Below, one piece after another: positions 333-39,317 of a stretch of DNA of 63,193 bases. The stretch lies in the NCBI GenBank assembly GCA_028135785.1, contig JAOIHS010000001.1, positions 1 through 63,193 of the forward strand, given 5' to 3'. Source of the stretch: SAR86 cluster bacterium (GTDB lineage Bacteria > Pseudomonadota > Gammaproteobacteria > Magnimaribacterales > AG-339-G14). The translations under genes and the position numbers were made by a program. The notes below the pieces were generated by a model that saw nothing but the letters and a program-made list of their open reading frames with translations, was not told where the DNA came from and ran no database searches. Each line of letters opens with the position of its first letter. Position 1 is the stretch's first letter.

Positions 333-1314
333 TCTTGTAAAGCTTTAAAACTTCTCCTGGTTTAACTGTCTGAAAAAAATCTTTCGATAAATTTAGTTTT
401 CTTAAAGATTCATTTAATAAAGAAGGTGGCTCTAAAACAGGCTCATCAGTTAAAATAAAAGTTCCCCAATGCATCCCAATAGATCTTTTGGCTTTTAAGT
501 CCAAAGCTATTTGTACAGCCTCGCTAGGATTTACATGACTAAAGCTCATAAACCATTGAGGAGAGTATGCTCCTATAGGAATCATTGCGAAATCCGGCGA
601 CCCTAATTTTGTATAAGTTTCTTTGAAGTCTTGAGTATATCCAGTATCGCCTGCATGGAAAATTGATATTCTCTTATTTTTCATAAACCATCCTCCCCAT
701 AAACTTTCACTTCTATCAAAAAGACCTCTAGCAGACCAGTGTTGAACTGGTGTGTAAGTAAAATACATTCCTTTTATCTTTTTCGTATCCCACCAAATAA
801 AATCAAAAACATTTTTAATATTAGCTTTTTTAAGAAGATGCTTGTCTCCTTTGGGAATAAGAAAAATAGCTTCAGGGTTGAGTTTAGAAATTTTTTTTAG
901 GCTTTTTATATCCAGATGATCATAGTGATTGTGACTAATAGTAATTACGTCTATTTTAGGTAAGTCTTCTATGGATATTGCAGGAGGAATTAATCTTTTA
1001 GGACCAATAAATGAAAATGGTGAGGCTCTTTGAGAAAAAATAGGATCAGTAAGAATGGTTAGATCATTTTCTTTTATTAAAAAAGTAGAATGTCCTATCC
1101 AGACCGAATAATCATTAGAATTTGTATTAAGATTTTTCCATTCATCAGAAATCTCAATTTCTACTCTATCTGGACTGACCCTTTCTCTTCTCCACTTTAG
1201 AAGCTCAGAAAAAGACCTTTCAGTTTTAGATATTCCGTTAGTATTTTTAAAAGGTTCTGTCATAGCGCAATTAGACAATAATAAAACAAAGATAAAAGGG
1301 AAATATTTATACAT
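325..1314 (-). CDS. Metallo-beta-lactamase-fold lipoprotein hydrolase (NAPE-PLD/RomA-like)
   Basis: This is a metal-dependent hydrolase of the metallo-beta-lactamase fold, in the branch that includes N-acylphosphatidylethanolamine phospholipase D and RomA. Numbering from an upstream in-frame Met at 1341, the metal motif HNHYDH is at residues 137-142, with later ligands at H201, D232 (HAGDTGY) and H291 (MHWGTF). The start chosen is the ATG at 1314, because MYKYFPFIFVLLLSNC then forms a clean lipoprotein signal with the lipobox cysteine, which predicts membrane anchoring. It is divergent from pgi with a gap of only about 65 bases, so promoters must overlap or abut. The substrate is unknown; a phospholipid or N-acyl lipid is a family-level guess. 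Confidence 0.8.
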   Translation of the reverse strand: MYKYFPFIFVLLLSNCAMTEPFKNTNGISKTERSFSELLKWRRERVSPDRVEIEISDEWKNLNTNSNDYSVWIGHSTFLIKENDLTILTDPIFSQRASPFSFIGPKRLIPPAISIEDLPKIDVITISHNHYDHLDIKSLKKISKLNPEAIFLIPKGDKHLLKKANIKNVFDFIWWDTKKIKGMYFTYTPVQHWSARGLFDRSESLWGGWFMKNKRISIFHAGDTGYTQDFKETYTKLGSPDFAMIPIGAYSPQWFMSFSHVNPSEAVQIALDLKAKRSIGMHWGTFILTDEPVLEPPSLLNESLRKLNLSKDFFQTVKPGEVLKLYKNE

Positions 1315-1380
1315 GTAATTAAGCCTGATAATTTTAATCACCTAATATCCAAGATATATTAGTTATAATCAACCTAAATT

Positions 1381-2766
1381 TTGGATATCTTGAAAAATAA
1401 GGAGAACTTGATTTCTCTAGCTAAAAATAATGAAGAGTCATCTCTTGCGATTGATTTTACAAATGATTATTTATCATTAAAAGGAAACGCTTTTGGCTTT
1501 TCTAAATCTGTAATCTCTCAATTTAATTCTATATATGATTTTCTCGAGGTTGATAAATCTATTTCTGATCTTTTTTTAAAAAAAATAGTCAATACTACTG
1601 AGAATCAATCGGCGCTTCATTGGGAACTAAGAGGTGCTGATAATTTTTTTCAAAGTGATCTTTTATCCAGAGTTAAGAATTTAAAGAAAAACCTATTAGA
1701 TAAAAATATTAAAAACATTATTACTTTAGGTATTGGAGGATCATATGAGGGACCGAAACTACTAATTGAATCTTTAACCAATTCAACAGAGCACGTATTT
1801 AATCATTTTTTTATAAGTGGGTCTGACCCTGATGAATTGAATGAATGTCTGGCTTCATGTGAATCCAAAGAAACAATATTCATCGTTTCATCAAAATCTA
1901 TGACGACTGCTGAAACGCTACAAAATTATAAATTGGCCTATAGTTGGCTCTCCAGAGAGCGACGACTATCTGATAAAGACCTTTTAGAGTCTTTTTATGC
2001 TGTTACAGCTAATGATCTTGAGTCAAAAGATTTAGGTTTTTTAGCAAAAAATACTTTTGTTTTTTCTAAAGAAATTGGCGGAAGATATTCTATATGGTCA
2101 TCTATATCCCTTCCTGCCCTCTTAGAAATTGAAGATGAGTTCATAAATTTTTTATCTGGAGCTTGCAAAGCAGATAAAGATTTAAAAAAAGATTCTAAAT
2201 ATTTAAATATTATTAAAACGCTTTCATTTATAGATATCTGGAACTCAAATTTTCTCAATAAATCAAATAGAGTAATTCTTTCTTATGCTTGGAAACTTAG
2301 ATCTATAACTGATTATCTTCAACAATTAGAAATGGAATCTTTAGGAAAAGCCTCTAGCAAGGATTCCATTTTTTCTAAAACAGGACAAACTATTTATGGT
2401 GGCTATGGTCCAAATGCTCAGCATTCTTATTTTCAGCTGCTTCACCAAGGAACATCTCAAACAGCTATTGACATGATTTATATTGAAAACGAAAATAAAA
2501 AGAACTTAATAGACTCTCAAGTTGCAGCTCAAAGTGATCTTTTTAATAGCTTTCATGAAGAGTTTAAAAATACCCATATAGCTGTAAATAGCGATGTTTC
2601 TGTTAATTTGTTTAAATTAAATAAACTTAATGCATTTAACTTAGGGTTTCTATTAGCAAGCTGGGAGCATAAAGTTTTCATCACTGCGCAAATGTTGCAG
2701 ATAAATCCCTTTGATCAATTTGGTGTAGAAGCTGGAAAGAGATTGGCTAAAAAAACCAATCAATAA
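1381..2766 (+). CDS. pgi: Glucose-6-phosphate isomerase
   Basis: It interconverts glucose-6-phosphate and fructose-6-phosphate in cytoplasmic sugar metabolism. Recognisable blocks are IGGSYEGPKLLIESL (phosphosugar binding), VSSKSMTTAET (SIS phosphate loop), IGGRYSIWSSI, the catalytic Glu in EMESLGK, the catalytic His in AQHSYFQLLHQGT and the C-terminal Lys in GVEAGKRLA. At 461 residues it is much shorter than the roughly 550 usual in gammaproteobacteria; the N-terminal helical part is reduced. No ATG lies upstream, since an in-frame stop precedes TTG 1381. In-frame TTG codons at 1381, 1390 and 1408 are the candidates, and an AAGGAG sits too close to the last. The 3' end overlaps the convergent glycosyltransferase gene by seven bases. 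Confidence 0.93.
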   Translation: MDILKNKENLISLAKNNEESSLAIDFTNDYLSLKGNAFGFSKSVISQFNSIYDFLEVDKSISDLFLKKIVNTTENQSALHWELRGADNFFQSDLLSRVKNLKKNLLDKNIKNIITLGIGGSYEGPKLLIESLTNSTEHVFNHFFISGSDPDELNECLASCESKETIFIVSSKSMTTAETLQNYKLAYSWLSRERRLSDKDLLESFYAVTANDLESKDLGFLAKNTFVFSKEIGGRYSIWSSISLPALLEIEDEFINFLSGACKADKDLKKDSKYLNIIKTLSFIDIWNSNFLNKSNRVILSYAWKLRSITDYLQQLEMESLGKASSKDSIFSKTGQTIYGGYGPNAQHSYFQLLHQGTSQTAIDMIYIENENKKNLIDSQVAAQSDLFNSFHEEFKNTHIAVNSDVSVNLFKLNKLNAFNLGFLLASWEHKVFITAQMLQINPFDQFGVEAGKRLAKKTNQ

Positions 2767-3575
2767 GTATTTTGATTTATTAGTGATTCGAAATTATCTT
2801 CCAATTCCTTACGATTAACTGATATCTCTCTTTTAACTCCAAAGATAAGTGCCTTAATAAACATAGGTAGTTCATAAAAGGAAATTTTTAGCCTTATTAA
2901 CTTTCTAGACATCCAAGAGTTATTTATATAATTTTTATTCCTTACTTGATGAATCGAAACATTATCCCCTTTTGTAGCCTTATCAATGTGCATCATCTGT
3001 ACAACAGGAGCAGGCTCTATTTGTCTATAATCTATCCATTTTCTAGACCAAAAAGTCGCATCAATCATGGCATAACTAGTTATTTCTTTATAAGCCTTTA
3101 AAGCTAATTTAGGACCAATTACATAAGCACCCAAGCCATCTTTATTTTGGTAAATCTTAATAGCAGAAGATTTCGTTTTAATATCCTTCCAGATAACACT
3201 TTTACCTAAAATATGTTTTCTAGGTACATACTCTAAATCATAAGCGACATTCCAATCATCTGAATGATTGCTTATAAAGTTTAATATTTCTTTTATATTG
3301 TCAGAAAAAATAACATCATCTTCAATGATCAAACATTTTTCATTTTCTTGAGAGACCCTATCCCATGCCTTCCTATGAGAGTGAAAACAACCGACATCTT
3401 TAGAAAATATATTTCTTGTCCAATTATTAGCTGCTTGTTGGAGATCTAATTCACTCAATAAAGAACCATTTATTGCATCTATGAATTCAATTTCTAATCC
3501 AAGATTTTCTGCTTGATACTTTTGAAAATCTCTTCGCTCTCGGTAGCTACTCATGCTGATTATAAAGATTTTCAT
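2760..3575 (-). CDS. Glycosyltransferase family 25 protein (LPS-type)
   Basis: This is a probable glycosyltransferase of family GT25, which adds galactose or similar sugars to lipooligosaccharide or other surface glycans. The N-terminus MKIFIISMSSYRERR, the DAINGSLLSE segment, the GCFHSHRKAWDRV block and the acidic LIIEDDVIF motif (likely nucleotide-sugar and metal binding) are in family order. At 271 residues its length is normal. Its ATG overlaps the nagZ stop by four bases, so translation is probably coupled. No signal peptide is seen, so it should act at the cytoplasmic face of the membrane. The sugar donor and acceptor cannot be read from the sequence. Confidence 0.82.
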   Translation of the reverse strand: MKIFIISMSSYRERRDFQKYQAENLGLEIEFIDAINGSLLSELDLQQAANNWTRNIFSKDVGCFHSHRKAWDRVSQENEKCLIIEDDVIFSDNIKEILNFISNHSDDWNVAYDLEYVPRKHILGKSVIWKDIKTKSSAIKIYQNKDGLGAYVIGPKLALKAYKEITSYAMIDATFWSRKWIDYRQIEPAPVVQMMHIDKATKGDNVSIHQVRNKNYINNSWMSRKLIRLKISFYELPMFIKALIFGVKREISVNRKELEDNFESLINQNTY

Positions 3576-23162: not shown

Positions 23163-25061
23163 TTAAGCTATCGTTGTCTTAATTTTTTTCTTACTTAAAC
23201 TCCAGTAAATTTTAAAGATTTTTAGAAAAAATAATCTAAAGGTTCTGTCAAAAAGAGAGACTTTTGAAATTTCTGATTTAACTTCAGAAATTTGTTTTCC
23301 TCTAATTAAGTTTCCAGGAAGAATTCCAGTTGCAGTTCCGTTCTCACTGACTATATGACCTCTTTTGATAGTTGCTATATAACCTGTAGCATTTTGAACT
23401 AAACGTTTTCCTCCTAAAGGCAGATCATGAATCATTTTAGGATGACTCACATTTAAATCATCAAAATCGATGATATTAATATCAGCTAACATACCTGGTT
23501 TGATTTCACCGCGATCAAATAAGCCAAAAGTTTCAGCAGTATCTTTTGTTTGTTTTTTAACTAACATCTCAAGAGGAAATTTCTTACCAGCCTCTCGGTC
23601 TCTTGCCCAGTGAGATAAGTTTGTTGTTGGCATACTTGCATCGCAAATTAGACCACAATGTGCTCCTCCATCACTCCCACCTGCAACAGAAGACTTAAGG
23701 CCATATGCTTGTTCGACAAAATTAAGTTTATAATTTTCATACGGAGTAAAGGCTGCATAAATAAGGTTTGTACCATTATTTTTCATCATTTCGTCGTACA
23801 TTACCTCAAGTTCTGAGATCCCCTTTATTAAAGATATTGCTGCAATACTATCTTCTTTCTTAGGTTCATAATTTGGAGGAGTCCCTAAGATAAATTGAGT
23901 TTTATAATTAGCAGTAAGCTTTGTTGGAAGTTGAACATCCTTTGTAATTTCTTCTCTGGTTTTAGTATTACTTTCATCAGCGAGTTTTTTTTCTATCTCT
24001 GACTCAAAATCAGGTTCTTGACTCAATAGCATATTTTTAAAATCAGGATTCTTCATGATTTCAAATTTTTGATCAAGCGGTAAATTTGAAATCTCTTTAT
24101 AAGCAGGATATTGAACGAAAGGATTCAAAGAGCTTTCAAGACCAAACATAAGACCTACATTTCTTCCAGGAAATTGAGGGCGGATATTTTTACCTTTAAG
24201 ATAGTGTTCTTCTGCATATAAAATTGTTTTAGCTGCATCTCCGCTCGTTTGCAAAAAAGTCAAACCGCAGTCACTTTTATCGACATATTCTTTCATCCAA
24301 GACATTTCTATTTCTTCGTCTAACCAGTCTGATGTTATTTCCAAAGTACCTTCGCCAGCCTTATCTATACCAAAAGCCAGAGCTTTCATTTCTTCAGAAC
24401 TAGCTTCAGTTCCTGGAACATATTTTCCATAAATATCTCTATGCAAAATAGTTCTTGAAGTGCTGAAGCCTAAAGCACCTGCATTAATAGCTTCTGTTAC
24501 AAGCTCTGACATTTTATTAATCTCTTTGTCAGAGGCATCAACTTGGTTTTGACATCTTTCGTGACCCATCACATAGCTTCTTAATGGTCCATGACCAATC
24601 ATGAAACCTAAATCCATAACAAATTCTTTCTTATCGATTGCATCTAAAAACTCAGGGAAAGTTTCCCAGTCCCACTCAATGCCTTCATGCAGAGCGGCGC
24701 CCGGAATGTCTTCCACACCTTCCATCAATTGAATTAAAAAATTTTCATCGCCAGGTTTGACTGGTGCAAACCCAACTCCACAATTCCCCATAACGGCAGT
24801 CGTTACTCCATGCCAACTGGACGGTGTTAAGTATGGATCCCAACATACCTGGCCATCGTAATGTGTGTGAATATCGACCCATCCAGGCGTAACTAAATTA
24901 CCTTTGGCATCAATTTCCTTTTTACCTGAATTTGCTACAAACCCTACTAGTGAAATTTTTTCATCATCAATAGCAATGTCGCCAATGAACGGTTTTTTTC
25001 CAGATCCGTCTATAATTTTTCCATTTCTAATTACAAAATCATGCATATTATTATTTCTCAT
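23163..25061 (-). CDS. Amidohydrolase, N-acyl-D-amino-acid deacylase family
   Basis: A 632-residue metal-dependent hydrolase of the urease superfamily. It has the first metal motif VDIHTHYDGQVCWDP (His65, His67), GNCGVGFAPVKPGDEN, a family-specific block, and SDGGAHCGLICD with a late Asp. The C-terminal beta-sandwich has the usual DRGEIKPGMLADINIIDFDDL. It resembles D-aminoacylases and related N-acyl-D-glutamate deacylases, and could help recycle D-amino-acid derivatives. The start may be the first Met or Met6 (MHDFVIRNGKIIDGSG). It is followed downstream by the DUF3604 gene 20 bases later. Confidence 0.86.
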   Translation of the reverse strand: MRNNNMHDFVIRNGKIIDGSGKKPFIGDIAIDDEKISLVGFVANSGKKEIDAKGNLVTPGWVDIHTHYDGQVCWDPYLTPSSWHGVTTAVMGNCGVGFAPVKPGDENFLIQLMEGVEDIPGAALHEGIEWDWETFPEFLDAIDKKEFVMDLGFMIGHGPLRSYVMGHERCQNQVDASDKEINKMSELVTEAINAGALGFSTSRTILHRDIYGKYVPGTEASSEEMKALAFGIDKAGEGTLEITSDWLDEEIEMSWMKEYVDKSDCGLTFLQTSGDAAKTILYAEEHYLKGKNIRPQFPGRNVGLMFGLESSLNPFVQYPAYKEISNLPLDQKFEIMKNPDFKNMLLSQEPDFESEIEKKLADESNTKTREEITKDVQLPTKLTANYKTQFILGTPPNYEPKKEDSIAAISLIKGISELEVMYDEMMKNNGTNLIYAAFTPYENYKLNFVEQAYGLKSSVAGGSDGGAHCGLICDASMPTTNLSHWARDREAGKKFPLEMLVKKQTKDTAETFGLFDRGEIKPGMLADINIIDFDDLNVSHPKMIHDLPLGGKRLVQNATGYIATIKRGHIVSENGTATGILPGNLIRGKQISEVKSEISKVSLFDRTFRLFFLKIFKIYWSLSKKKIKTTIA

Positions 25062-29018: not shown

Positions 29019-29786
29019 CTAGAACGATATTCGATAGTCAATTTGATAAAGTGTTTGTTTTATATTTTTTGCTTCATAACCCCATCTAAAGCTTCTGAAA
29101 CTATCGCCTTTGCAGTCTAGATTTTCTGTCTTCACAGAAACTCCAAAACCCTCTAAGAAACCTGAATTAAAAAATACTCCACTATTAGGATTTAAACCCC
29201 AGCAAGTAATACCTGTTTCTGGACCACCCACGCCATAAGTTCCAGAATGATTTGGGTTTCCATAAGTAACTCCATTTACTTCGAATTGAGGATAATTTGT
29301 ATCTGTCATCTTTCCATCAAAATAGGATATGGTTAATCCAACATAAGGGGTTAGGTTGAGCCAAGAATTGAACCTATAACTTGGTCCCAAGTTAAGAGTT
29401 ATTCCCTTTAATTTAAATGGAGGCGCAGGATTTACAACATAGCCCCCAACCACAAAAGTCCCGCTTATAGGGTCACCTTTCCTTCTGCTGTGAGTAATAC
29501 CGGCGTTTAGATATAAATTATCATTAATTTTTCTATAATAATCTAAACTAAGCGCATGATCTTCTGTTCTTAATGTGTCATCAGTTAGTTTTACTGTTTT
29601 AACATTTTTGCCAAGATTGCCATATATCGGCGTATGCAAGCCACTAACATCTCCCATTGATCCGCTTGAAGAAACTGCAATACCAAATGAAAGTTCATTG
29701 ACTTTTTGATTAACATCCATTTCAGCGGCTGTGCTCAATGTAATTTGAAAAAGAAATAAAATAGAAATAAAGGACAGATTCTTCAT
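29019..29786 (-). CDS. Outer-membrane beta-barrel protein (porin-like, OmpW-sized)
   Basis: A 255-residue protein with a cleavable signal peptide (MKNLSFISILFLFQITLSTAAE) and alternating polar/apolar strands. Examples are LNAGITHSRRKG, GITLNLGPSYRF, LTPYVGLTISYF and the end QTLYQIDYRISF with the C-terminal Phe used by the BAM complex. Two Cys residues (ITCW, LDCKG) may form a loop disulfide. No specific family is recognised. It occupies the segment between guaA 3'-end copies A and B and starts about 130 bases after copy B. Confidence 0.65.
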   Translation of the reverse strand: MKNLSFISILFLFQITLSTAAEMDVNQKVNELSFGIAVSSSGSMGDVSGLHTPIYGNLGKNVKTVKLTDDTLRTEDHALSLDYYRKINDNLYLNAGITHSRRKGDPISGTFVVGGYVVNPAPPFKLKGITLNLGPSYRFNSWLNLTPYVGLTISYFDGKMTDTNYPQFEVNGVTYGNPNHSGTYGVGGPETGITCWGLNPNSGVFFNSGFLEGFGVSVKTENLDCKGDSFRSFRWGYEAKNIKQTLYQIDYRISF

Positions 29787-34050: not shown

Positions 34051-34068
34051 TCACTCCCACTCAATAGT
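34051..34068 (-). repeat. guaA 3'-end copy D
   Basis: On the minus strand this reads ACTATTGAGTGGGAGTGA, Thr-Ile-Glu-Trp-Glu-stop, with synonymous GAG for GAA and a TGA stop. The frame continues upstream as Val-Ser-Lys-Thr-Ala, close to the Ser-Lys-Pro-Pro-Ala of the real guaA. It is therefore a true guaA 3' end of about ten codons. The 158 bases between copies C and D hold no gene. Confidence 0.82.
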
Positions 34069-34120
34069 AGCGGTTTTTGAAACCCTTATGTAGCAACGCT
34101 TTGCGAGGGGAAAAATTGTC

Positions 34121-34207
34121 TTTACAACATTTGAGGTTTATTTCTGTGTGTCTCAATATCTTAAATTCCTTTTAATATCAGCAGTTTAGAATTTTAGTTG
34201 TTGTAAA
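34121..34207. repeat. Inverted arm-type repeats TTTACAACA
   Basis: TTTACAACA occurs at 34121-34129 and its exact reverse complement TGTTGTAAA at 34199-34207. The same nonamer recurs at the other end of this segment near copy E. The rest of 33828-34314 shows no gene, only copies C and D, these repeats and, at 34309-34320, the perfect palindrome AAGTGATCACTT overlapping the methyltransferase stop. Confidence 0.5.
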
Positions 34208-34314
34208 GTTTACAATGCCATAATTTGCTGAAACTTACTAAATATTGATGAAACAGCATCAAGCGTAGAACTATGAAAACCATGCTTACCATTTAAATTT
34301 TTATGTCTAAGTGA

Positions 34315-34956
34315 TCACTTTGTACCTTCCACAAATACAGACTCCGAACCTCTCTCAAATAGATCTAAGCCAGTTGAATTTTTAATGGTGGTTTCACCTT
34401 CAGCGCAAACTTTTATATTTTTGAGCCCTACTTCTCTGAACAAACTGCTAAGAGACTTACCATCGTACATCCATTGATGATGCCGATAGCCATTCAGAAA
34501 TAAAAATACTTTCTGCTTCAATGTGTTTATGGGTGGAGCCTCTACTAAAATAGAAGTCATAAATTCGTCAGCGTCTTCATTGATTAAGTATCTCTCTATT
34601 CCTATTTTTAGGTCTGGTATAGAAACTCGAAGCACACCATCAATCTTAAGCATTCTCTTTGCTTCATACAAAAATGATTTTGCTCCTTCGCGTGAGAGGT
34701 GCTCGAACATGTGGGATGTATATATCGCCTCAACAGAATTTGATGAAAGTGGAATACCTTTTGTAGCATCTGCATACTTAATTTTATTTTTCTTATTCCA
34801 CTCAATATTATCAATATGATTCTTATTAAGCATGCCAATTAATTTTGCTATGCGATATTTTAGTGGAGAGTTCGCGAGTTTTATTGCGGGAGTATTATCA
34901 AAATTTAACCAACCTTCCGAAGGGCTTGACCCACAACCTATATTAATTCGATCCAT
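34315..34956 (-). CDS. Class I SAM-dependent methyltransferase
   Basis: A roughly 213-residue methyltransferase. Motif I is INIGCGSSPSEGWLNFD (glycine-rich SAM loop and acidic strand end). Motif II-like AIYTSHMFEHLSREG is next, then MLKIDGVLRVSIPDL. This layout is shared with methyltransferases of surface-polysaccharide and fatty-acid clusters. The start is one of three consecutive codons (GTG 34962, ATG 34959, ATG 34956) after a strong GGAGGA; spacing favours the last. It is the sole recognisable gene in the segment between guaA 3'-end copies D and E. Confidence 0.78.
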   Translation of the reverse strand: MDRINIGCGSSPSEGWLNFDNTPAIKLANSPLKYRIAKLIGMLNKNHIDNIEWNKKNKIKYADATKGIPLSSNSVEAIYTSHMFEHLSREGAKSFLYEAKRMLKIDGVLRVSIPDLKIGIERYLINEDADEFMTSILVEAPPINTLKQKVFLFLNGYRHHQWMYDGKSLSSLFREVGLKNIKVCAEGETTIKNSTGLDLFERGSESVFVEGTK

Positions 34957-34972
34957 CATCACTCCTCCATTT

Positions 34973-35026
34973 ATACATTCCTTATTTGTTTAACTAATAC
35001 AATTATATTCGTAGTTAGGAATGTAT
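34973..35026. repeat. Inverted repeat ATACATTCCT upstream of the methyltransferase
   Basis: ATACATTCCT (34973-34982) and its perfect complement AGGAATGTAT (35017-35026) flank the 34 bases upstream of the methyltransferase ribosome site. Either a regulator site or part of the attachment region. The gene-free stretch 34957-35295 otherwise holds arm-type repeats, copy E and a tRNA fragment. Confidence 0.35.
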
Positions 35027-35087
35027 CATCTTCAAGTAAGATGTATTACATACTTGATACACTTATGAAGGGTAATAGTAGCAGAAC

Positions 35088-35147
35088 TTTACAACAATAT
35101 TTACAACAAAGACGAAGGAATGCGTCTATACAACATCTTTACAACAT
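35088..35147 (+). repeat. Cluster of TTTACAACA direct repeats
   Basis: TTTACAACA occurs at 35088-35096, 35100-35108 and 35138-35146, with ATACAACA at 35128-35135. The cluster is about 40 bases inside guaA 3'-end copy E. Repeated nonamers beside a core site resemble recombinase arm sites; the matching motif near copy D supports this. Confidence 0.5.
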
Positions 35148-35185
35148 AGGAAACAGCGTAGGAATGGGGGTTGTAGGGCGTGTTA

Positions 35186-35203
35186 TTACTCCCACTCAAT
35201 GAG
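35186..35203 (-). repeat. guaA 3'-end copy E
   Basis: On the minus strand this reads CTCATTGAGTGGGAGTAA, Leu-Ile-Glu-Trp-Glu-stop. It shares the invariant core TCCCACTCAAT (plus strand) with copies A, C, D and guaA. About 10 bases further on the plus side is TGAAACCCTT, also found beside copy D. A tRNA 3' fragment lies 29 bases away. Confidence 0.78.
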
Positions 35204-35231: not shown

Positions 35232-35270
35232 TGGGCTCGGGGGGACTCGAACCTCCGACCAACAGATTCT
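35232..35270 (-). pseudogene. tRNA 3'-end fragment
   Basis: On the minus strand GGTCGGAGGTTCGAGTCC has the form of a variable loop, T-stem and T-loop (TTCGAGT), followed by CCCC and an acceptor-like GAGCCCA. The 5' half with its D-arm is absent: upstream sequence is the 3' end of the lipoprotein gene, and the anticodon region does not pair. It is a fragment, not a working tRNA. tRNA 3' ends are classic integration targets, so this is probably carried by or left by an element. The isotype cannot be told. Confidence 0.6.
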
Positions 35271-35295
35271 TAGAACATAGATTACCTAAAAATAG

Positions 35296-37754: not shown

Positions 37755-37772
37755 TTATTCCCACTCAATAGT
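37755..37772 (-). repeat. guaA 3' end (site F), parent of the repeat family
   Basis: The functional guaA gene ends ACTATTGAGTGGGAATAA (Thr-Ile-Glu-Trp-Glu-stop). The core TCCCACTCAAT on the plus strand is the invariant part of five sites in this window. In other bacteria the guaA 3' end is a known integration hotspot for genomic islands. Confidence 0.85.
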
Positions 37773-39317
37773 GGCTGGTGGTTTGCTAGAAATATCATAG
37801 ACAACTCTTGAAACTTGCGGTATTTCATTGATGATTCGATCCGATAATAAATTTAAAAATTCATGATCAAGCTTGGCTGCATTAGCAGTCATAAAATCTG
37901 TTGTTTCAGCAGCTCTTAAAGCAATAACGTATTCATACCTTCTGGCATCTCCAACTACGCCAACACTTTTAATAGGCAAGAAAACTGCAAAAGCTTGGCT
38001 TACTTTGTCATAGAGATTGTGACTGTTTAATTCTTCCATAAAAATAAAATCAGCTGCTCTCAATATTTCTAGTCTTTCTTTTTTTATTTCTCCGAGAGTT
38101 CTTACAGCTAAACCTGGTCCTGGAAAAGGATGTCTGTTAATTAAATAATCTGGCAGACCAAGTTCTTTCCCTATTTTTCTGACCTCATCTTTAAACAAAG
38201 AAGTTAATGGTTCAACTAAAGGTAATTTCAAATAAGATGGCAAGCCACCAACATTATGATGAGATTTTATAATGTGCGCTTTGCCGTTTTTAATACCCGA
38301 AGATTCAATGACATCTGGATAAATTGTGCCTTGAGCCAAGAATGAAATATTTTTTAGTTTTTTGGTTTCTTTCAAGAAGACATCAATAAAAGTTTTGCCA
38401 ATTATTTTTCTTTTCTTCTCGGGATCAGACTCCCCTTTTAAATTCTTAAGAAATAACTTCTCGCTATCTGAAAAATTTATATTTAGTTTCAACCCTCGTT
38501 TTAGATCTTTTTTAACTTGTTCGGCTTCGCCTTTTCTGAGCAGACCATTATCCACAAAAATACATTCTAAGTTTTTGCCTATTGCTTTTGAAAGCAAGGC
38601 TGCCACTACCGATGAATCGACTCCACCTGAGATTCCTAATAATACTTTCTTATCTCCAACTTGAGACTTAATATCTTGGATTAATGAATCAACAATATTT
38701 TTGGGTCGCCATTTTCCACTACACCCACAAATATCTTTAACAAAAGTTTTTAAGATTTTCTGACCCTGATTGGTGTGCGTTACTTCAGGATGAAATTGAA
38801 AACCATATTTTTTTAATTTTATATTTTCAAAAGCAGCAATTGCGCTATTGTTAGAAGAACCTATTTTTTTAAAACCTTTTGGCAAATTAGTAACTTTATC
38901 GCCATGACTCATCCAGACATTTAAATCTTTAGTTTTTGTTGAAAGGCCAGAAAAGATTAACCCTTTATTAACTTTAAGAACTGCATTACCAAATTCTCTT
39001 TTATCAGAAGAACTAACGATGCCGCCAAAATGCTTTGCCATAGTTTGCATGCCGTAACAAATACCAAGAACAGGGATATTACTGTCCAGCAGTTTTGGAT
39101 CAAATTTAAGTGCTTTTTTAGTATTAACTGACTCTGGTCCCCCAGACATGATTACTCCAGAGGCATTCATTTCTATAATTCGTTTTAGAGATGTTTCGTG
39201 GGGTAAGATTTCGGAGTAAACTCCCGCTTCCCTTATGCGACGAGCAATGAGTTGGGTGTATTGCGAGCCAAAGTCGAGAATAATTATTTTTTCAGATGTT
39301 ATTCCAGCTTTCACCAA
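37755..39317 (-). CDS. guaA: GMP synthase (glutamine-hydrolysing)
   Basis: It converts XMP to GMP using ATP and glutamine, in the last step of GMP synthesis. The amidotransferase domain has [15 protein letters not shown] with the nucleophile Cys, and HPEVTHT with the His-x-Glu. The ATP pyrophosphatase domain has the P-loop [15 protein letters not shown]. The C-terminal dimer domain ends [13 protein letters not shown]. The 520 residues match the usual 525. It starts one base after the guaB stop, so guaB-guaA is an operon. Its last codons are the repeated attachment-like site of the downstream island. Confidence 0.97.

Follow-up and report, generated by a model that had tools for sequence, protein, structure and literature searches.

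The segment between positions 34053 and 35200 of the window (the whole 63,193-nucleotide stretch of SAR86 cluster bacterium DNA analysed here) is bounded by two guaA-end copies, D and E, and is very probably a non-autonomous integrative cassette. Sequence comparison suggests that its ancestor was a small guaA-targeting element in which a methyltransferase gene took the place of the tyrosine integrase gene directly behind the start codon, and that the cassette would be mobilised in trans. It is filed as a derivative of the guaA islands and not as an autonomous member, since the segment holds no integrase. Streamlined ocean bacteria gain and lose genes rapidly and, to our knowledge, are usually without integrons, plasmids or recognisable mobile elements. 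If the reading is true, one-gene cassettes made of cores and arm sites are a compact and easily missed vehicle for marine gene traffic, and searches that begin with an integrase miss such islands.

Structure of the D-E segment and its locus

The assembly containing the window is 947 kb in length, 65% complete and divided into 20 contigs. Downstream of guaA, 11–13 bases of the guaA 3' end are repeated at 35188, 34053, 33877 and 28822, so that the region consists of segments stacked in tandem with guaA ends at their borders (Table 1). An additional match at 24668 was rejected as a core copy; it lies inside an amidohydrolase ORF common to G023 and is a chance match. The preliminary description of two guaA ends enclosing one methyltransferase and no recombinase was confirmed, with exact 13-mers at 34053 and 35188, a single real gene exhibiting a PF08241 domain, no recombinase found in the segment and no tyrosine integrase beside guaA at this locus. 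Both boundaries are identical to the guaA 3' end (GAGTGGGA), which is the core that defines guaA islands, and this octamer, included in core D, is the recombination core of GIsul2 (PMC9376610). D-E thus has the make-up of a satellite, keeping both att half-sites with their arm sites while the recombinase is absent.

A search of the order's 202 remaining genomes at E<=1e-15 gave no relatives of the methyltransferase, whose distant matches are found on soil alphaproteobacterial plasmids with 27–31% identity. An Rfam scan matched no family. A tRNA 3' part is present in the neighbouring E-F segment (35233–35275, minus strand), running from the anticodon loop TTCTAA to the acceptor and resembling tRNA-Arg(TCT). 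It lies just inside the distal end of E-F, as a tRNA-targeting element would leave it; ARAGORN called no tRNA on the window.

Table 1. Features of the D-E segment and the surrounding guaA locus (window positions; arm-site offsets are relative to the nearest core of the segment).
Feature	Position	Strand	Remarks
Gene-less 176-bp neighbour segment	33877..34052		Arm sites with the AACTAAG word of the G001 integrase element
Core D, guaA 3'-end copy, distal boundary	34053..34065	-	Exact 13-mer; ATTGAGTGGGAGT on the minus strand
Distal arm site TTTACAACA	34121..34129	+	-62 from core D; offset common to most cassettes with distal end present
Distal inverted arm pair TGTTGTAAAGTTTACAATG	34199..34217		Offset about -142/-150; -153 in relatives
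Class I SAM-dependent methyltransferase (cargo), 214–215 aa	34315..34962	-	PF08241 above cut-off; same sense as guaA
Remnant of integrase start, ATG GAG GAG TGA	34959..34970	-	TGATG overlap into methyltransferase
guaA-proximal end and integrase leader	34968..35200	-	226/234 identical to G166 integrase leader
Proximal arm site TTTACAACA	35088..35096	+	+106
Proximal arm site TTTACAACA	35100..35108	+	+94
Degenerate proximal arm site TATACAACA	35127..35135	+	+67; intact in most relatives
Proximal arm site TTTACAACA	35138..35146	+	+56
Core E, guaA 3'-end copy, proximal boundary	35188..35200	-	Exact 13-mer
Neighbour segment (E-F) adjoining guaA	35201..37769		Single gene for a lipoprotein-like protein of 769 aa; ATACAAACT-type arm sites +54/+65
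guaA (GMP synthase), attB-bearing gene	37755..39317	-	Translation end KPPATIEWE*

Arm sites and their register

Five copies of TTTACAACA had been described just inside the two ends, and all five are in place (34121, 35088, 35100 and 35138 on the plus strand, 34199 on the minus strand). A sixth copy in the window is located at 29431. This count of six compares with 1.07 +/- 0.99 in dinucleotide shuffles, none of which reached six in 100 attempts. The whole assembly contains 24 copies and no second cluster like that of D-E, which holds five of the 24 where 0.023 are expected (P for five or more about 5e-11). The preliminary description held that its idea would fall if TTTACAACA occurred throughout the genome at background frequency; the five copies within 1.15 kb are far in excess of that, and the idea therefore stands.

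The TGTTGTAAA sites exhibit a register that, counted from the proximal core, is +56, +67, +94 and +106 and, counted from the distal core, is -62, -73 and, inverted, -153. This register holds in most of the loci with this end, namely the window, G166, G123, G107 and MAGs and SAGs belonging to SAR86, Woeseiaceae and other marine gammaproteobacteria, with several loci lacking at least one site and distal ends available for only some. In ten other loci, from marine gammaproteobacterial MAGs and SAGs, most offsets are common and the cargo is different; the genes found behind TGTTGTAAA ends include two kinds of methyltransferase as well as acyltransferases. Arm positions conserved across unrelated cargo support the earlier reading of the nonamers as recombinase arm sites. 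Within the window, the +67 site TATACAACA has one mismatch and the distal inverted pair is shifted, one 11-bp repeat unit being missing in comparison to relatives, so that this copy may be weakened.

Other arm words are found at closely similar offsets in two integrase-bearing elements: G017 has ATACAAACT at +55/+66 and -64/-53, and G001 has AACTAAG at +67/+77 and -73/-62. Unrelated words occupying the same offsets as direct repeats 10–11 bp apart are what is expected of sites for an N-terminal arm-binding domain, a type of domain described in PMC8138268, and the candidate arm sites are putative targets that an integrase would bind. The E-F arm sites are of the G017 type; with the other two words present in the two segments neighbouring D-E, cassettes of three arm types seem to be stacked at this locus.

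Searches for the proximal end among phage and plasmid records and the other genomes of a 398-genome phylum sample were negative, and hence this end is not a general sequence. IMG/VR provided no relatives when scanned with the end sequence, with the methyltransferase or with alignments of the integrases. Many of 24 contig matches to the arm pattern (e.g. L088, L096, L100 and L106) are due to chance, having no homology to the ends, as is the one IMG/VR pattern match, L111, which is without the flanking register.

Integrase-bearing relatives and the replacement junction

The preliminary description had proposed to look in related guaA islands for a tyrosine recombinase with TTTACAACA in the att regions, and one was found in SAR86 cluster bacterium BS30m-G42 (G166, JADHSF010000012.1). 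In this genome guaA is followed by the window-type, arm-bearing end and then by a gene for a 425-aa tyrosine integrase. It was added by a search of the 203 genomes of the order with the G001 and G017 integrases as queries (E<=1e-20). Candidate helper integrases of this family are rare, being encoded in 3 of the 203 genomes (G001, G017 and G166), in each case directly behind guaA with such ends. The catalytic domain is identified by PF00589 in G017 and G001 and by the PHROG "integrase" entry in G166 (4.6e-26). Residues R267, R375 and Y407 (G166 numbering) are invariant in all three proteins, and the first H of the HxxR motif is Y. The N-terminal part of the G001 protein exhibits only a weak match, to DUF6538, and a single-sequence AlphaFold model of the G166 integrase (pLDDT 34) was too poor to show an arm-binding domain and was discarded.

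The G001 and G017 integrases are core-bounded, and their elements encode the integrase, an adjoining small serine resolvase and other genes; no Pfam relaxase was identified in the eight proteins scanned. In G001 the integrase and small serine resolvase are part of a 3.3-kb element (L076, oriented positions 415–3122). This element also encodes a 156-aa protein with an HCHCLL motif resembling HUH replication proteins, for which there is no Pfam match. Besides ubiquitous Xer-like proteins, the other tyrosine-recombinase matches are three in G010 and G012, and the G010 locus is without a core. The sole tyrosine recombinase of the window's own, 65% complete assembly is an XerC-like fragment adjoining a HAD phosphatase gene, and no integrase of the G166/G017/G001 type was found among its 20 contigs.

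Over the stretch between the core and the start codon of the integrase, the window and G166 are identical at 226 of 234 positions (96.6%), compared to 68% identity between the guaA genes. This identity ends at the integrase ATG, where the methyltransferase takes over (34970–34957). The methyltransferase therefore occupies the place of the integrase and inherits its leader. L108 is an intermediate in which 40 integrase residues (92.5% identical) are followed by a break and then by an acyltransferase. The proximal att half-site of D-E is thus common to an integrase-bearing member. The G166 contig does not reach the distal end of its element, and a search for this end in the rest of the genome was negative; the distal half of D-E is homologous to other cassettes.

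The leader contains a TATAAT-like, promoter-like box inside a perfect inverted repeat, ATACATTCCT...AGGAATGTAT, and the integrase's AAGGA ribosome site lies within the right arm of this repeat. A read-through RNA of the leader is predicted to fold stably, at -21.8 and -25.2 kcal/mol for 120 nt, and a transcript beginning after the TATAAT-like box is predicted to have no stable fold. We hypothesise that the repeat would mute the integrase when transcribed from guaA.

The guaA 3' end as an insertion site and related systems

In this family the guaA 3' end is an insertion hot spot. The window and 32 relatives provide 33 guaA loci, and in 16 of these two or more cores delimit segments, 26 in all, which range from 119 bp to 5.5 kb with a median of 1155 bp. 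A single gene is present in 15 of the 26, and 34 of the 43 genes are co-directional with guaA. Such single-gene, mostly co-directional and tandem units are also what an integron would produce, with an IntI integrase moving attC cassettes. This is a highly improbable origin here, as the units end in guaA-type cores accompanied by arm sites at set distances, the integrases encoded beside guaA are of the phage or island type according to the PHROG match, and no attC-type site was noticed in passing. It is equally hard to credit that the arrangement is an assembly or binning artefact or a set of chance repeats. The window does come from an incomplete draft, and the related contigs L101 and L108 come from MAGs with implausible taxonomy, but the same architecture is present in many independent assemblies, including several SAR86 records with the isolate codes AG-337-P19, AG-404-A04 and AH-321-C05, and the opposite strand, over 572 kb, contains no core match.

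Filled and empty sites were identified in three sets of relatives: a 2702-bp segment with a duplicated core in G034 is missing from G025, one segment in G013 and two in G008 correspond to an empty site in G014, and 4.3 kb in G039 corresponds to an empty site in G036. The preliminary description looked for a relative lacking exactly this segment; exact filled and empty pairs exist for sister segments, but no genome was found in which C-D adjoins E-F with D-E missing. These pairs also bear on RecA-dependent homologous recombination between guaA and the conserved ends, by which cassettes could be exchanged with no integrase at all. The ends are 80–97% identical over about 150–230 bp between species, enough for such exchange once cassettes are present. 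Exchange of this kind leaves unexplained the insertion at bare guaA ends with core duplication, the conserved arm register and the integrases in the same position, and is considered improbable.

Several integrase-less segments are more alike than the last 190 bp of the guaA genes beside them. The c73 segment, which carries a single gene for an alpha/beta hydrolase, shows 99.0% identity from one core to the other (1012 bp) between genera with 73% identity in the guaA 3' end. The corresponding values are 93.7% against 78% for c96, also between genera, 92% against 81% for c116, and up to 99.6% over 491 bp against 67% for c78. Integrase-less cassettes have therefore spread horizontally as units; this was shown for c73, c96, c78 and c116 and not for the D-E cargo, which is unique in the order. 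The earlier proposal of a satellite mobilised in trans is largely supported by this spread across genera and by the G166 type of helper, with present-day mobilisation of the D-E copy itself being the part that we only infer.

D-E could instead be a dead remnant of an integrase island that inserted and decayed in place, acquiring the methyltransferase through a chance deletion or insertion, and be immobile now. The mutated proximal arm site, the missing distal repeat unit, the lack of a helper in the incomplete assembly and the degenerate cores elsewhere (G034, G028 and G004) are consistent with decay. Both cores and most arm sites of D-E are intact, however, and integrase-less segments with varied cargo recur in several lineages, comparable ones being 94–99% identical across genera, which argues that loss of the integrase does not end mobility in this family. 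Decay in place is therefore regarded as unlikely, though the most plausible of the alternatives.

As a trans-mobilised cassette, D-E would keep both att halves, with a guaA-end core at each boundary and arm sites inside each. A related integrase from an integrase-bearing member would act in trans, binding the core and arm sites and recombining cores D and E, and would thereby excise the 1.1-kb piece as a circle in which the distal end is joined to the proximal end via one ACTATTGAGTGGGAGT. Insertion at the guaA 3' end would recreate a complete guaA each time, allowing cassettes to stack in tandem. Arm binding, trans-mobilisation of the D-E copy and a route between cells are the steps that we infer; no conjugation or capsid genes were recognised in the segments examined.

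In a broader proposal, for which we see about even chances, the guaA 3' end of SAR86 and some other marine gammaproteobacteria would be a cassette platform that is functionally equivalent to an integron and built from phage-type integrases. Several integrase lineages would each have their own arm word (TGTTGTAAA, ACTTGTAAAC, ATACAAACT, AACTAAG, AGTTACAAAG and others) and share one common core. Integrase-less single-gene cassettes with one of these words would be mobilised in trans, the arm type deciding how they are sorted, even in hosts too streamlined to keep an integrase. Since the arm words differ and the core is common, the matching of integrases to the cassettes that they mobilise can be tested directly. 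In the part of the literature covered, papers that deal with SAR86 together with guaA, or together with an integrase and a genomic island, do not seem to describe such an element.

In recA-negative E. coli, the integrase of GIsul2 both excised and inserted a unit that is att-bounded and int-less, using the GAGTGGGA core of guaA; GIsul2 with the CR2-sul2 unit is large, with three att sites over about 15 kb (PMC9376610). This system has the guaA-end target, the GAGTGGGA core, tandem att sites and an int-less att-bounded unit in common with D-E and, by analogy, is the closest experimentally tested precedent for its mobilisation. The units described here differ in their size of about 1 kb, their single cargo gene, the fixed spacing of their arm repeats and their streamlined marine hosts, and their integrase gave no tblastn match at 1e-5 in the plasmid and phage collections. 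CIMEs are att-flanked elements without recombination genes that are stacked beside related elements. The terms CIME and accretion of ICE and IME are in use (PMC7563491, PMC5704250). D-E is likewise att-flanked, stacked and devoid of recombination genes, but here no conjugation or mobilisation gene was recognised and the units recur in different genera away from an adjacent integrase element. Tycheposons of Prochlorococcus are small, cargo-carrying integrative elements of marine bacteria that target tRNA genes. In contrast, D-E targets the protein gene guaA, is smaller, holds a single gene and has a different integrase context. Tycheposons are mentioned in PMC11389934, which also treats CALIN and integron cassette arrays. 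CALIN resemble D-E as tandem single-gene cassettes without an integrase that depend on one in trans, but D-E has a double-strand, guaA-type core with arm sites in place of attC, and the integrases associated with its family are of the phage or island type and not IntI. We regard D-E as a very small form of the known integrase-less, att-bounded satellites of guaA islands, arrayed like an integron.

Degenerate cores TTTGAGTGGGA, ATTGAGGGGA and TATGGAGTGGGA are present inside longer segments (L052 at about 1946, L057 at about 2846 and L067 at about 1626, oriented). They mark former cassette borders, and exact core counts therefore underestimate the number of cassettes. The L101 and L108 contigs, from MAGs named Flavobacteriaceae or Flavobacteriales, contain tandem TGTTGTAAA cassettes, and L101 starts in a guaA end; these contigs are probably misbinned and would otherwise represent phylum-level transfer. 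In G029, a 119-bp gene-less segment with one core lies behind guaA (L063, oriented 241–360), and its single ATACAAACT pair is located at the expected offsets from both cores, perhaps representing an emptied cassette.
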